The notes under the pieces are model-generated. The model saw only the letters and a program-made list of their open reading frames with translations. It ran no database searches and was not told the origin of the DNA. Shown piece by piece: positions 38,796 through 42,169 of a DNA stretch of 64,000 nt (positions are counted from its first letter, which is position 1; every line of letters begins with the position of its first letter). The DNA comes from Halomonas getboli (GTDB taxonomy: Bacteria > Pseudomonadota > Gammaproteobacteria > Pseudomonadales > Halomonadaceae): positions 860,757 through 924,756 of the forward strand of contig NZ_JALMEW010000001.1 in the NCBI RefSeq assembly GCF_023094245.1, written 5' to 3'. Position numbers and translations under genes: made by a program.

Positions 38796-39649
38796 CCCTT
38801 ATCGCGCTGCTGCTCCTCCTGCTGACCGGCTGCGCCGGCCCCGGCGGGATGCGCAGTTCACCAGCCGGCCATTGGGTCACCATCCAGCGCGGCGACACCC
38901 TGGGCGAGATCGCCCGGCGGGCCGACGTGCCACTGGTGCGCCTTCGTCGCTTCAACCCCGGCGTGGATCCGCGCGGGCTGGCCGTGGGCCAGCGCATCCT
39001 GGTGCCCAGCCGCCAGGAGCGCGCGCCCTCCGGCGGCCCCTATCGCTACCAGATCCGCCCCGGTGACACCTACAGCGCCATCGCCCGGCGCTTCGGCACG
39101 TCACCGGTCAGCATCGCCGCAGCCAACTCGGGCGTCAGCCCCACCGACCTGAAGATCGGCCAGCTGGTCTCGGTGCCGCTGCACGGCGGCGCGAGCGCGT
39201 CCTCGAGCCATCGCCGCACGACCTCGTCGTCTTCGCGCTCCGTATCGGTGCCCGACCCGGGCCCGATGCCGAGCAGTGCCCGTGGCTGGCCCTGGCCGCT
39301 GGACAAGTATCGGGTCGCCCGTGCCTTCGGCAAGGACAGTCGCGGCACCCTGCAGCCCATGCTGCTGGCCACCGACCAGGGGGCCCGCGCCAAGGCCGTG
39401 GCCGACGGCGAGGTACGCTTCGCCGACAGCATGCGCCAGCTCGGCCGGGTGGTGATCGTGCACCATGCGGACAACCTGCAGAGCGTTTACGCCCTGTGCG
39501 ACACCCTGCTGGTGGACAGCGGCACCCGGGTCAACCAGGGCACGCCGCTGTGCACCGTGAGCCGGCACGCCTCCACCGGGCGCTATGACCTGCTGTTCGA
39601 CATGCGACACGGCGGCAAGCCCATCGATCCGCGCACCGTGCTGCGCTGA
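38744..39649 (+). CDS. LysM/M23 lipoprotein, probable amidase activator (NlpD-like)
   Basis: Outer-membrane lipoprotein of 301 residues. The signal helix ends in the lipobox LLTGC (Cys about residue 28). Two LysM domains follow: HWVTIQRGDTLGEIARRAD and YRYQIRPGDTYSAIARRFG. After a Ser-rich linker comes an M23 (LytM) domain starting AFGKDSRGTLQ. The zinc ligands of active M23 enzymes are missing: the HxxxD region reads LLATDQGARA and the HxH region reads YDLLFDMRHGG. That points to an NlpD/EnvC-type activator of cell-wall amidases rather than a hydrolase. The start lies inside the acyltransferase gene; no closer start upstream of the lipobox was seen. Confidence 0.82.
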   Translation: MAQRPVAGQGRRPRYALTLIALLLLLLTGCAGPGGMRSSPAGHWVTIQRGDTLGEIARRADVPLVRLRRFNPGVDPRGLAVGQRILVPSRQERAPSGGPYRYQIRPGDTYSAIARRFGTSPVSIAAANSGVSPTDLKIGQLVSVPLHGGASASSSHRRTTSSSSRSVSVPDPGPMPSSARGWPWPLDKYRVARAFGKDSRGTLQPMLLATDQGARAKAVADGEVRFADSMRQLGRVVIVHHADNLQSVYALCDTLLVDSGTRVNQGTPLCTVSRHASTGRYDLLFDMRHGGKPIDPRTVLR

Positions 39650-39666: not shown

Positions 39667-39706
39667 CTGTCATCGCGGCGTCATGACGATGTCGCGGTGC
39701 TGTCAC
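39667..39706 (+). promoter_or_regulatory. Double Pho box
   Basis: Four heptamers at exact 11-bp steps: CTGTCAT (39667), GCGTCAT (39678), ATGTCGC (39689) and CTGTCAC (39700), each separated by 4 bp. This is the architecture of tandem PhoB dimer sites. It begins 17 bp after the lipoprotein stop and ends 63 bp before the glycosyltransferase start. No clear -10 can be singled out. Confidence 0.7.
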
Positions 39707-39769
39707 CCCTCCAGGCCATCCTGAATCGTCAACGGGGCCACTCCGGCCGCCGACGTCACGAGGATGGAC

Positions 39770-40927
39770 ATGCGCATCTGCCTGGTCAGCGAAACCTGGA
39801 CGCCGGACATCAACGGCGTGGCCCACACCCTGGCCCAGCTCAGCGGCCAGCTGCGGAAACGCGGCGTCTCGCTGCAGCTGGTGCGCCCGCGCCCCGCCGA
39901 CGGCGAGCATCGCGCCGAGGGCATGGACAGCGAACTCCAGGTGCGCGGCGCCTCCGTGCCGGGCTACCGCGAGGTGCGCCTTGGCTTTCCCGCCGGCGGC
40001 CGCATCCGTCGACTGTGGCAGGCCGAGCGCCCCGACGTCGTCTACGTGGCCACCGAGGGCCCGCTCGGCTGGTCGGCGCTGGCCGCCGCCGAGAAGCTGG
40101 GCATCCCGGTGGTCAGCGGCTGGCACACCAACTTCGATCACTACTGCCGCGACTACGGCGTCGACTGGCTGCGCCCGCTGGTCACCCAGCGCCTGCGCCG
40201 CTTCCACAACCGCTGCGGCGCCACCCTGGTGCCGACCCATGCCCAGGCTCGCGACCTCGGCCAGCGCGGCTTCGAGCGGGTCAAGGTCATGGCGCGCGGC
40301 ATCGACGGCGAGCGTTTCTCGCCGGCCCATCGCGACCCGACCCTGCGCGAGCAGTGGGGCGCCGACGAGCATCGTCCGGTAGCGCTGTACGTCGGCCGCC
40401 TGGCACCGGAGAAGAACCTCGACCTGCTGCGAGATACCTTCGCCGCCATGCTCGACGCCCACCCCGGCCTCACGCTGGTGGTGGTCGGCGACGGCCCCGG
40501 CCGCACCAACCTGGAGCGTGCCCTGCCCCAGGCCCACTTCGCCGGTTTCGTGTCGCCGGATGACCTGATCCGCTACTACGCCAGCGCCGACCTGTTCGTC
40601 TTCCCGTCGATCTCCGAGACCTGGGGCAACGTGCTGCTCGAGGCCATGGCCAGCGGCCTGGCCACCGTCGCCTTCCGCCACGCCGCCGGCGCGGAGCTGA
40701 TCGAGGACGACGTCAACGGCGTGCAGCTGGCGGTCGGCGACGAAGCTGGCTTCCGCGACGCTGCGGTGGCGCTGTGCCAGCAGCCGGCTCGCTACGGCCG
40801 CCTCGGCCGCGCCGCTCGCCAGCGTGCCCTCGGCTATCGCTGGCCCGCCATCACCGATGACTTTCTCGCCGCCCTGACCCACGCCCGGGAGATGTCCGAT
40901 GAAACCTCGCGCCCCTGCCGTGTTTGA
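39770..40927 (+). CDS. Glycosyltransferase family 4, probable glycolipid synthesis
   Basis: GT-B retaining glycosyltransferase of 385 residues, similar in layout to MgtA/SqdX-type enzymes that glycosylate diacylglycerol or other lipids. The N-terminal MRICLVSETWTPDINGVAHT and GWHTNFDHYCRDYG are typical of that branch. The donor site shows YVGRLAPEKNLDLL and the E-x7-E motif in SETWGNVLLEAMASG. The ATG at 39770 is chosen over 39764 because GAGG is then correctly spaced. It overlaps the PAP2 gene by 29 bp and is preceded by a double Pho box, suggesting induction in phosphate starvation. Confidence 0.9.
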   Translation: MRICLVSETWTPDINGVAHTLAQLSGQLRKRGVSLQLVRPRPADGEHRAEGMDSELQVRGASVPGYREVRLGFPAGGRIRRLWQAERPDVVYVATEGPLGWSALAAAEKLGIPVVSGWHTNFDHYCRDYGVDWLRPLVTQRLRRFHNRCGATLVPTHAQARDLGQRGFERVKVMARGIDGERFSPAHRDPTLREQWGADEHRPVALYVGRLAPEKNLDLLRDTFAAMLDAHPGLTLVVVGDGPGRTNLERALPQAHFAGFVSPDDLIRYYASADLFVFPSISETWGNVLLEAMASGLATVAFRHAAGAELIEDDVNGVQLAVGDEAGFRDAAVALCQQPARYGRLGRAARQRALGYRWPAITDDFLAALTHAREMSDETSRPCRV

Positions 40928-41441
40928 CCGCCTGGATACGCTCGAATGGCACCTCTGCCAGCGCCTGGCCGGATTCAGCATCCACCGCCCCTGGCTGTGG
41001 TCGCTGCGCCTGGCCAGCAAGGCCGGCGACTGGCCGATCTGGGTGGTGCTGATCGCCGCCCAGCCCTGGCTGCACGACCGCGACGAGGGCTCGCGTCTGG
41101 CACTGCACTACACGCTGACCGCGCTGGTGGCACTCGCCTTCTACCGGCTGGTGAAGACGCGGCTGTGCCGCGAGCGTCCCTTCATCACCTTCGCCACCAT
41201 CGCCTGCCAGGAGCCGGCGCGGGATCGCTACAGCTTCCCCAGCGGCCACACCATGCACGCGGTGCTGTTCTGCACCCTGTCCGCCGCCCACTCGCCCTGG
41301 CTGCTGCCGGCGCTGATCCCGGTGGCAGCGCTGATCGCGGTCTCGCGGGTCGGCCTCGGCCTGCACTACATCAGCGACGTCATCGCCGGTGCGGCCATTG
41401 GCTATGCCATGGCGCTGACGAGCCTGGCGCTGGCTTCCTGA
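40899..41441 (+). CDS. PAP2-family phosphatase
   Basis: Membrane phosphatase of 180 residues of the type-2 phosphatidic acid phosphatase family. The three signature motifs are KTRLCRERP, PSGHT and SRVGLGLHYISDVIAG, with several hydrophobic helices between. Likely substrates are phosphatidate, phosphatidylglycerophosphate or undecaprenyl pyrophosphate. Coupling to the upstream glycosyltransferase by a 29-bp overlap suggests it makes diacylglycerol for glycolipid synthesis, an inference. GGGAG precedes the ATG. Confidence 0.9.
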   Translation: MKPRAPAVFDRLDTLEWHLCQRLAGFSIHRPWLWSLRLASKAGDWPIWVVLIAAQPWLHDRDEGSRLALHYTLTALVALAFYRLVKTRLCRERPFITFATIACQEPARDRYSFPSGHTMHAVLFCTLSAAHSPWLLPALIPVAALIAVSRVGLGLHYISDVIAGAAIGYAMALTSLALAS

Positions 41442-41464: not shown

Positions 41465-42082
41465 ATGGACCTGTTTTCTCCCGCCGCCAATGACGACGAG
41501 TGCCTGCTCGACCAGCCGCCGCTGCATCGCTTCGCCCGTCTGCTGGGCACCGATGCCGCCGACGCGGCACTCGCCAGGCTCGACCGCGAGCTCGACTGGC
41601 AGCGCCCGACGCTGCGACTCTATGGACGCGACCACCCGATTCCCCGCCGCCAGGTGTGGATGGGCGACGCCGCCTACCGGTACTCGGGCCGTGACTTCGC
41701 GCCGGATCCCTGGCATCCCACGGTCTTGATCATCCGTGACGCCGCCGTCGCACGACTGGCCACCGCGGGCTACGACACTCGCTTCAACAGCGTATTGCTC
41801 AACCGCTACGCCGATGGCGACGAGCGCATGGGCTGGCACTGTGACAACGAGCCGGAGCTGGGCGCGGCGCCATTGATCGCCGCCGTCAGCCTCGGCGCCG
41901 ACCGCCCGCTGCGCTTCCGCTGGAAGGACCGCCGCGCCCCGGCCTTCAACGTCGGCCAACCCCACGACGGCCTGCTGCTGATGGGCCCAGGCGTGCAGGC
42001 CGACCTCGAACATGCCCTGCTGCCCAGGCGCGGCCACGGGCTGCGCATCAGCCTCACGTTTCGCTGGGTGCTGGACGACTGA
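41465..42082 (+). CDS. alkB: AlkB-like Fe(II)/2-oxoglutarate dioxygenase
   Basis: DNA/RNA alkylation repair dioxygenase of 205 residues, closer to the ALKBH2-type subgroup than to E. coli AlkB. Iron ligands are His and Asp in GWHCDNEPELG and His in LEHALLPRRGHG, with the oxoglutarate-binding Arg in RISLTFRW. FNSVLLNRYADGDERMGWH is the conserved nucleotide-recognition segment. The ribosome binding site is poor, and the gene starts 23 bp after the PAP2 stop, so it may be read as a third gene of that operon. Heptad repeats follow its stop. Confidence 0.9.
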   Translation: MDLFSPAANDDECLLDQPPLHRFARLLGTDAADAALARLDRELDWQRPTLRLYGRDHPIPRRQVWMGDAAYRYSGRDFAPDPWHPTVLIIRDAAVARLATAGYDTRFNSVLLNRYADGDERMGWHCDNEPELGAAPLIAAVSLGADRPLRFRWKDRRAPAFNVGQPHDGLLLMGPGVQADLEHALLPRRGHGLRISLTFRWVLDD

Positions 42083-42091
42083 CGGCTCCAC

Positions 42092-42147
42092 CACCTCGCA
42101 CCTCGCACCTCGCACCTCGCACCTCGCACCTCGCACCTCGCACCTCG
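42092..42147. repeat. Heptad array CACCTCG x8
   Basis: Eight perfect tandem copies of CACCTCG, starting 9 bp after the alkB stop. Period 7 is the same as in the elements at 20743 and 31698, but with a different unit sequence. No facing array is seen on the other side of the following terminator. Confidence 0.85.
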
Positions 42148-42169
42148 CGATTCTCCCTCACCGACATAC

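Follow-up and report, generated by a model that had tools for sequence, protein, structure and literature searches.

Phosphate-starvation lipid renovation by a phospholipase C (PlcP) and a glycosyltransferase (Agt) has been described in Pseudomonas aeruginosa (PA3219-PA3218 and PA0842), Sinorhizobium, Phaeobacter, and SAR11. According to passages of PMC8528852, Agt2 uses uridine diphosphate (UDP)-glucuronate and diacylglycerol to make glucuronosyl-diacylglycerol (GADG), has a Pho box, and is up four-fold at low phosphate; the same passages report that a P. aeruginosa plcP deletion retains some GADG and must therefore draw diacylglycerol from a further source. Parts of PMC4796936 describe PlcP as the marker by which this renovation was traced in marine genomes and metagenomes, and propose phosphatidate phosphatase as a diacylglycerol source for cyanobacterial lipid remodeling. 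Here we analyze 64,000 nucleotides of the Halomonas getboli genome (contig NZ_JALMEW010000001.1, positions 860,757 to 924,756; "the window"), where a double Pho box precedes overlapping genes for a GT4-family glycosyltransferase (GT) and a PAP2 membrane phosphatase. We consider it probable that this is a PhoB-activated lipid-renovation operon of the PlcP-Agt kind in which PAP2 supplies the diacylglycerol, based on the conserved heptamer sites, the pairing of the two genes, the relationship of the GT to known enzymes, and the PAP2 motifs and predicted fold.

Pho box and promoter

The heptamers CTGTCAT, GCGTCAT, ATGTCGC, and CTGTCAC follow one another at exact 11-bp steps (positions in Table 1), as a first-pass annotation made from the letters alone had claimed. 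Its reading of them as a double PhoB site is backed by pattern matches in the genome, by conservation in the family, and by the spacing to the -10 element. A LysM/M23 peptidase gene ends upstream at 39649, 114 bp before the GT4 open reading frame (ORF); the box lies in this gap and begins 17 bp past the peptidase stop codon. A 40-bp box pattern, which was derived from the tested site itself, has one match in the window with up to three mismatches and none in 100 shuffles. With a heptamer matrix from phoB and pstS promoters the box scores 32.4; no window site outside the box scores 5 or more, two lower scores of 7.6 and 6.1 coming from registers that overlap it, and the highest score in 20 mononucleotide-shuffled windows (one strand each) is 10.9. 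For the matrix, 22 distinct phoB/pstS sites were chosen by the consensus CTGTCA[CT]; it is independent of the GT promoters, though not of that consensus.

The strict pattern YTGTCAYNNNNNYGTCAY, composed with the GT4 and phoB sites already known, matches the 3.66-Mb assembly twice, at the GT4 promoter and the phoB promoter, and its reversed control has no match. The looser pattern TGTCAYNNNNNNGTCAY has four matches (the GT4, phoB, and pstS1 promoters and a GAPDH gene beside pst genes) and its reversed control one. A single genomic place scores above the curated PhoB cut-off. Across 30 loci, phoB promoters have a heptamer pair at 11 bp, the best pair having 11 to 14 of 14 matches. In the window genome, ATGTCATGAAGCTGTCAT lies at -80 in the pstS1 promoter, and no clear box precedes a second pstS gene located about 7 kb from phoB. 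The heptamers of the GT4 box share period and strand with the CTGTCAT direct repeats of the phoB and pstS1 promoters.

The fourth match of the looser pattern is a Pho-like pair, TGTCACCGGATCGTCAC, at G000:C18:212885-212901 (locus L250, around 1500-1517), about 90 bp 5' of the GAPDH gene (assigned by Pfam). Its neighbor is an ABC ATPase gene that we take for pstB, and an AT-rich repeat lies in between. GAPDH genes of this sort can be part of arsenate detoxification, and Pho and arsenic control may meet here.

Conservation of the box ahead of orthologous operons had been named beforehand as the check on which the annotation would stand or fall, and the box is conserved in 103 of 110 family loci. 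These come from a search of 151 genomes of the family, 130 of which have a strong GT4 ortholog (E 2.4e-58 or better, including two broken copies); 110 loci were analyzed, and among the 20 left out L194 was used for PAP2 only. The 103 upstream regions score above the 99.9th percentile of mononucleotide shuffles with the phoB/pstS matrix. Their best site is on the + strand in 100 and on the - strand in L108-L110. In 104 of the 110 loci the GT4 box is the top site of its roughly 4-kb locus, counting both strands.

Promoters aligned on the box (96 loci with a matrix score of at least 10, thinned to 77) have a CA..CT -10 element 10 bp 3' of it, in which the A holds 1.9 bits and the T 1.8 bits. Information per base is 0.94-1.47 bits within the heptamers, 0.15-0.32 within the spacers, and 0.07 on the 5' side of the box; anchoring by the matrix partly favors heptamer information by construction, and the -10 signal is free of this effect. 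A promoter scan found no sigma-70 consensus site, and its sole terminator-like site is on the opposite strand; the GT4 promoter has no consensus -35. A -10 about 10 bp past the box is typical of the PhoB regulon, in which PhoB replaces the -35. The GT4 promoter has these traits of the regulon: heptamer repeats at 11 bp, the -10 spacing, and no consensus -35. From the sequence, we predict Pho control of the GT4 operon with near certainty; PhoB would bind here and low phosphate would induce the operon.

The GT4 and PAP2 enzymes

The GT4 protein is 49% identical over 376 amino acids (aa) to a P. aeruginosa GT encoded behind a phospholipase C gene and plcR, which we take to be PA0842/Agt2 by gene order and the PAO1 numbering, the record having no PAO1 tags. 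It is 35% identical to a P. aeruginosa Agt1-type GT encoded behind a PlcP-type gene, presumably PA3218/Agt1 and PA3219/PlcP. A tree made by a quick method separates 106 Agt2-type rows, the window enzyme among them, from three Agt1-type rows with a Shimodaira-Hasegawa-like approximate likelihood ratio (SH-aLRT) support of 100. The E-x7-E motif is present in 105 of 106 orthologs, and the predicted structure (predicted local distance difference test, pLDDT, 90.1) has a GT-B fold near MshA, BshA, PimB', and PimA. L306, with a suspected frame problem, was omitted from the model alignments. The identity and shared clade support the lipid-glycosylating type first suggested for this enzyme, and it is very probably a glycosyl-diacylglycerol synthase. 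The sugar and product would be those of Agt2, although donor specificity may differ at 49% identity.

A further GT4 protein occurs in relatives: L152 (1470-3713) encodes 747 aa with a C-terminal GT4 part about 33% identical to the window GT, and similar ORFs of about 750 aa are found in others. Its long N-terminal part reads by eye like a membrane-anchored metallophosphoesterase, Pfam reporting the GT part only, and the matrix scan finds no Pho box in front of it.

The three PAP2 catalytic motifs (K-x6-RP, PSGH, and SR-x5-H-x3-D) are intact in 106 of 106 translated orthologs, a count that covers 106 of 108 loci as two fell out. The model (pLDDT 87.2) has a helical membrane PAP2 fold. It matches Bacillus subtilis PgpB (5jki; Z 17.5, 163 aligned residues, 2.6 Å) and Aquifex aeolicus LpxE (6ebu; Z 17.4, 158 aligned, 2.4 Å). 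A PHROGs search with PAP2 gave no match. The window genome has two further PAP2 genes. We predict, with fair confidence, that this PAP2 supplies diacylglycerol to the GT4, and its substrate would be phosphatidate.

Distribution of the gene pair

The GT4 ORF encodes 387 aa and the PAP2 ORF 180 aa, and the 29-bp overlap between them reported from the letters holds (39764-40927 against 40899-41441). The same pair was to be sought in relatives: PAP2 stands directly 3' of GT4 in 108 of 110 family loci. Among named species, Halomonas eurihalina carries the operon. The genes overlap in 106 of these 108 pairs, by exactly 29 bp in 57, with lengths that depend on automatic start-codon choice.

A search of the order covered 390 genomes, of which 68 have a strong GT and 50 of these lie outside the family; 47 were fetched, three being left out together with some second GT copies. 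PAP2 is behind the GT in 29 of the 47 (families f5, f20, f36, f38, and f43), and the GT has no PAP2 neighbor in the other 18 (f9 and the Pseudomonas-like f21). Ahead of the pairs the box scores 15.0-41.5 in f20 (13 loci), 10.2-33.8 in f38 (11 loci), 12.6 in f43, and 11.0 in f5. One Acinetobacter baumannii record (CP035931) has a GT4-PAP2 pair behind ATGTCAG-CTGTCAT-TTATCAT-GTGTCAA in 11-bp steps. Some f38 genomes (L227, L229, L232, L242, and L245) also encode another Agt2-type GT, one that has no PAP2 and lies on the opposite strand some 5-13 kb away from the pair.

PAP2 and PlcP as partners

To call PAP2 and PlcP neighbors we ran tblastn with two queries for each protein and an E cut-off of 1e-4 or 1e-5, a setting that distant kin may escape. 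A survey of named loci took the best 80 of 581 confirmed matches. Within these 80, PAP2 is directly behind the GT in 55 (52 Halomonadaceae, two Thioalkalivibrio, and one gammaproteobacterial metagenome-assembled genome, MAG). Five have PlcP in the PAP2 slot, all MAGs: the betaproteobacterial Azovibrio, Comamonadaceae, Rhodocyclaceae, and Azoarcus, and one Opitutales. In another five, PlcP lies upstream and is separated from the GT by a further GT4; 13 have neither gene (nine are Pseudomonas), and two are cut off. No locus has both PAP2 and PlcP among these 80, the 52 order loci, and the 110 family loci.

At the level of genomes, PlcP (E 1e-40 or better) is present in 18 of 18 order genomes whose fetched GT is without a PAP2 neighbor versus 13 of 47 with one. 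Fisher's test of this alternation gives p 1.4e-6 for the 47 non-family genomes; adding 18 genomes of the family, each with PAP2 at the GT (L194 is the 18th), gives 4e-8. The pattern fits non-orthologous displacement of the diacylglycerol source, with PAP2 or PlcP in the same slot.

The first-pass annotation had placed PAP2 in the role of PlcP. The part of this claim that stands is the slot, which PlcP occupies behind the GT in the five MAGs; absence of PlcP as support does not stand, as the window genome has a PlcP homolog. This homolog (47% identical) is on contig 23, next to the gene for an S-adenosylhomocysteine hydrolase. In its promoter (L180, 1363-1506) a weak four-heptamer Pho-like box (6.6) is followed by CATCCT 10 bp 3' of it, the same as in the GT4 promoter; box scores over the 20 PlcP loci scanned range from 6.6 to 36.3. 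An AGCTTCC repeat run lies just 5' of the box of the window genome's PlcP gene. Counting PlcP matches at E 1.9e-46 or better, 39 of the 151 family genomes have GT4 and PlcP, 91 GT4 only, two PlcP only, and 19 neither. PAP2 would act beside PlcP in the window organism and alone in most relatives. One relative (L108 of G002, with L154 and L174) carries a PlcP-Agt1 pair whose identities to its P. aeruginosa counterparts are 83% and 67%, and its Agt2-type GT is without a PAP2 neighbor.

Proposed mechanism and alternative explanations

In the mechanism we propose, PhoB would bind two adjacent dimer sites at 39667-39706 at low phosphate and, substituting for a -35, recruit RNA polymerase to the -10 at 39717-39722. 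One transcript would encode the Agt2-type GT4 and PAP2, whose overlapping translation is probably coupled. PAP2 would dephosphorylate phosphatidate, releasing diacylglycerol and free phosphate. GT4 would then glycosylate the diacylglycerol, most likely with glucuronic acid taken from UDP-glucuronate (or with glucose). The resulting phosphorus-free glycolipid would take the place of anionic phospholipid. In the window genome the PlcP homolog may add diacylglycerol from existing phospholipids, and 91 of the 151 family genomes have GT4 but lack a strong PlcP match, so that their diacylglycerol would come from PAP2 as a dedicated source.

Several observations weigh against this mechanism. The PgpB and LpxE fold matches tie, and neither fold nor sequence fixes the PAP2 substrate; its best NCBIfam model, far below threshold (44.5 of 250 bits), is the undecaprenyl-diphosphatase SepP. 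PAP2 active sites are usually periplasmic and UDP-sugars cytosolic, so the diacylglycerol would need flipping. PAP2 is missing in two of the 110 family loci. The box is weak or missing in some: seven family loci score below 4.6 and four more score 5.4, the three f36 pairs score 25.0, 18.3, and -1.1 (the third being boxless), and two Thioalkalivibrio GT4-PAP2 pairs have no box (-27.1 and -24.1). The alternation of PAP2 and PlcP amounts to one independent pair on the tree when starred branches are used and two when all are (sign test p = 1), and with only one or two independent contrasts we do not count it as significant. With a PlcP homolog of its own, the window genome has a possible diacylglycerol source other than PAP2.

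The SepP match, which is also the best sub-threshold one for the Acinetobacter PAP2, suggests another function: PAP2 may be an undecaprenyl-diphosphate or other periplasmic lipid-phosphate phosphatase that is induced together with the GT, recycles carrier lipid, and gains phosphate, the GT using diacylglycerol from PlcP or turnover. The title of an Escherichia coli PgpB structure names a phosphatidylglycerophosphate (PGP) and C55-PP phosphatase, and the PlcP homolog could provide the diacylglycerol. We think this unlikely: the two further PAP2 genes could cover housekeeping, and the fact that several families pair PAP2 specifically with an Agt2-type GT, with PlcP in the slot elsewhere, argues for a phosphatase that makes the GT's own substrate. 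We give a similarly low probability to an ordinary PlcP-Agt pathway with PlcP as main enzyme and PAP2 as minor helper. The Pho-like box and identical -10 at the genome's own PlcP gene and the 39 family genomes with both genes are in its favor, but GT4 occurs without a strong PlcP match in 91 genomes and PAP2 is retained in 108 of 110 loci.

Two other explanations are less probable still. The GT might glycosylate a different lipid such as phosphatidylglycerol (PG), as in N-acetylglucosaminyl-PG synthesis, with PAP2 as a PGP phosphatase feeding the acceptor. The best NCBIfam model of the GT is indeed N-acetylglucosaminyl-PG synthase, below threshold at 145 of 480 bits, and one of the top PAP2 fold matches is a PGP phosphatase. 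The Agt2-type enzyme scores alike on that model (135 bits), yet Agt2 uses diacylglycerol in the account given in passages of PMC8528852; a phosphorus-containing product would also be ill-suited to Pho control, and we regard the PG explanation as improbable. It is very hard to credit that an OmpR-family regulator other than PhoB binds the site: the PhoB model matches 31 places in the genome at E 1e-3 and OmpR-family regulators can share 11-bp direct repeats, but heptamer, spacing, and strand are identical to those of the phoB and pstS1 promoters.

The Pho-controlled diacylglycerol-supplying operon may also be part of something broader, a proposal on which we are evenly divided. It would be a second, phospholipase-independent renovation route in which the Pho-controlled GT4-PAP2 pair diverts new phosphatidate via diacylglycerol to a glucuronosyl lipid before the phospholipid stage. 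PAP2 would have PlcP's place in several families of the order, the overlapping genes may encode a coupled enzyme pair, and the route would extend to Acinetobacter.

Locus layout and neighboring genes

Table 1. Features of the GT4-PAP2 locus in window coordinates.
Feature	Coordinates	Strand	Basis and remarks
Double Pho box	39667..39706	+	Heptamers at 39667, 39678, 39689, 39700; pattern and matrix scans, family conservation
Probable -10 element CATCCT	39717..39722	+	Box-anchored promoter alignment; 10 bp 3' of box
GT4 glycosyltransferase, Agt2 type, predicted glycosyl-diacylglycerol synthase	39764..40927	+	Pfam GT4 domains, identity, tree, model
PAP2 membrane phosphatase, predicted diacylglycerol supplier from phosphatidate	40899..41441	+	PF01569, motifs, model, gene order
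AlkB-like 2-oxoglutarate (2OG)-Fe(II) oxygenase	41465..42082	+	PF13532; starts 23 bp past PAP2 stop

The GT4 gene probably starts at ATG 39770 rather than at the first ATG (39764), judging from the sequence, because a GAGG motif (39760-39763) abuts the latter. The alkB gene, which the first-pass annotation had offered as a possible third member of the module, is probably co-transcribed with the pair in the window genome, yet it is not a conserved member. Of the 110 family loci, 53 have alkB behind the pair in the same orientation (gap of at most 51 bp in 46 of the 53), and we ruled it out as a third module gene given the 57 loci without a same-strand copy behind the GT. The upstream genes for a YihG acyltransferase and the LysM/M23 peptidase were also ruled out as members. 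The M23 gene is absent from 39 of 108 GT-PAP2 loci, where the pair and mostly also the box are retained. As the presence of M23 and AlkB varies among loci, we treat the GT4-PAP2 pair as the unit and its neighbors as separate. Between alkB and a gcvT gene, at 42092-42148 of the window, is a tandem repeat of the 7-base unit CACCTCG with 8.1 perfect copies.

Comparison with known systems

If the proposed mechanism is true, surveys that use the PlcP marker would miss many halophiles, Acinetobacter, and other Gammaproteobacteria without plcP. PAP2 is a candidate enzyme type for the diacylglycerol source left over in the P. aeruginosa plcP deletion, as far as the passages describing that strain go. 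The route would also run in Acinetobacter, where one low-phosphate lipid appears to await identification: parts of a 2025 study of A. baumannii lipids at low phosphate leave a lipid, U3, unidentified (PMC11828411). The words glycosyltransferase and diacylglycerol have zero occurrences in the main text of that paper. A search of open-licence PMC papers, with subscription papers and preprints outside it, turned up no title or beginning of an abstract that describes a Pho-controlled GT4-PAP2 lipid operon.

The A. baumannii pair has the same gene order as the window pair, with PAP2 36% and GT 41% identical and four heptamers in 11-bp steps, but its genes are separated whereas those of the window overlap. 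Agt2 falls into one supported clade with the window enzyme against the Agt1-type rows, and its gene in the P. aeruginosa record follows plcR and a phospholipase C gene. In the Pseudomonas-like f21 the Agt2-type GT has a PAP2 neighbor in none of 14 genomes, in contrast to the pair described here. The cyanobacterial proposal, in the parts of PMC4796936 that present it, involves the same chemical idea; it is general and made from gene presence, while here the phosphatase is the partner of a GT in an operon with a Pho box. With PlcP-Agt renovation the locus shares the Pho box, a GT4 predicted to glycosylate diacylglycerol, and a dedicated partner that would make the diacylglycerol. It differs in that partner, which is a PlcP phospholipase C there and a PAP2 membrane phosphatase here, and in the source lipid, a finished phospholipid there and what would be phosphatidate here.

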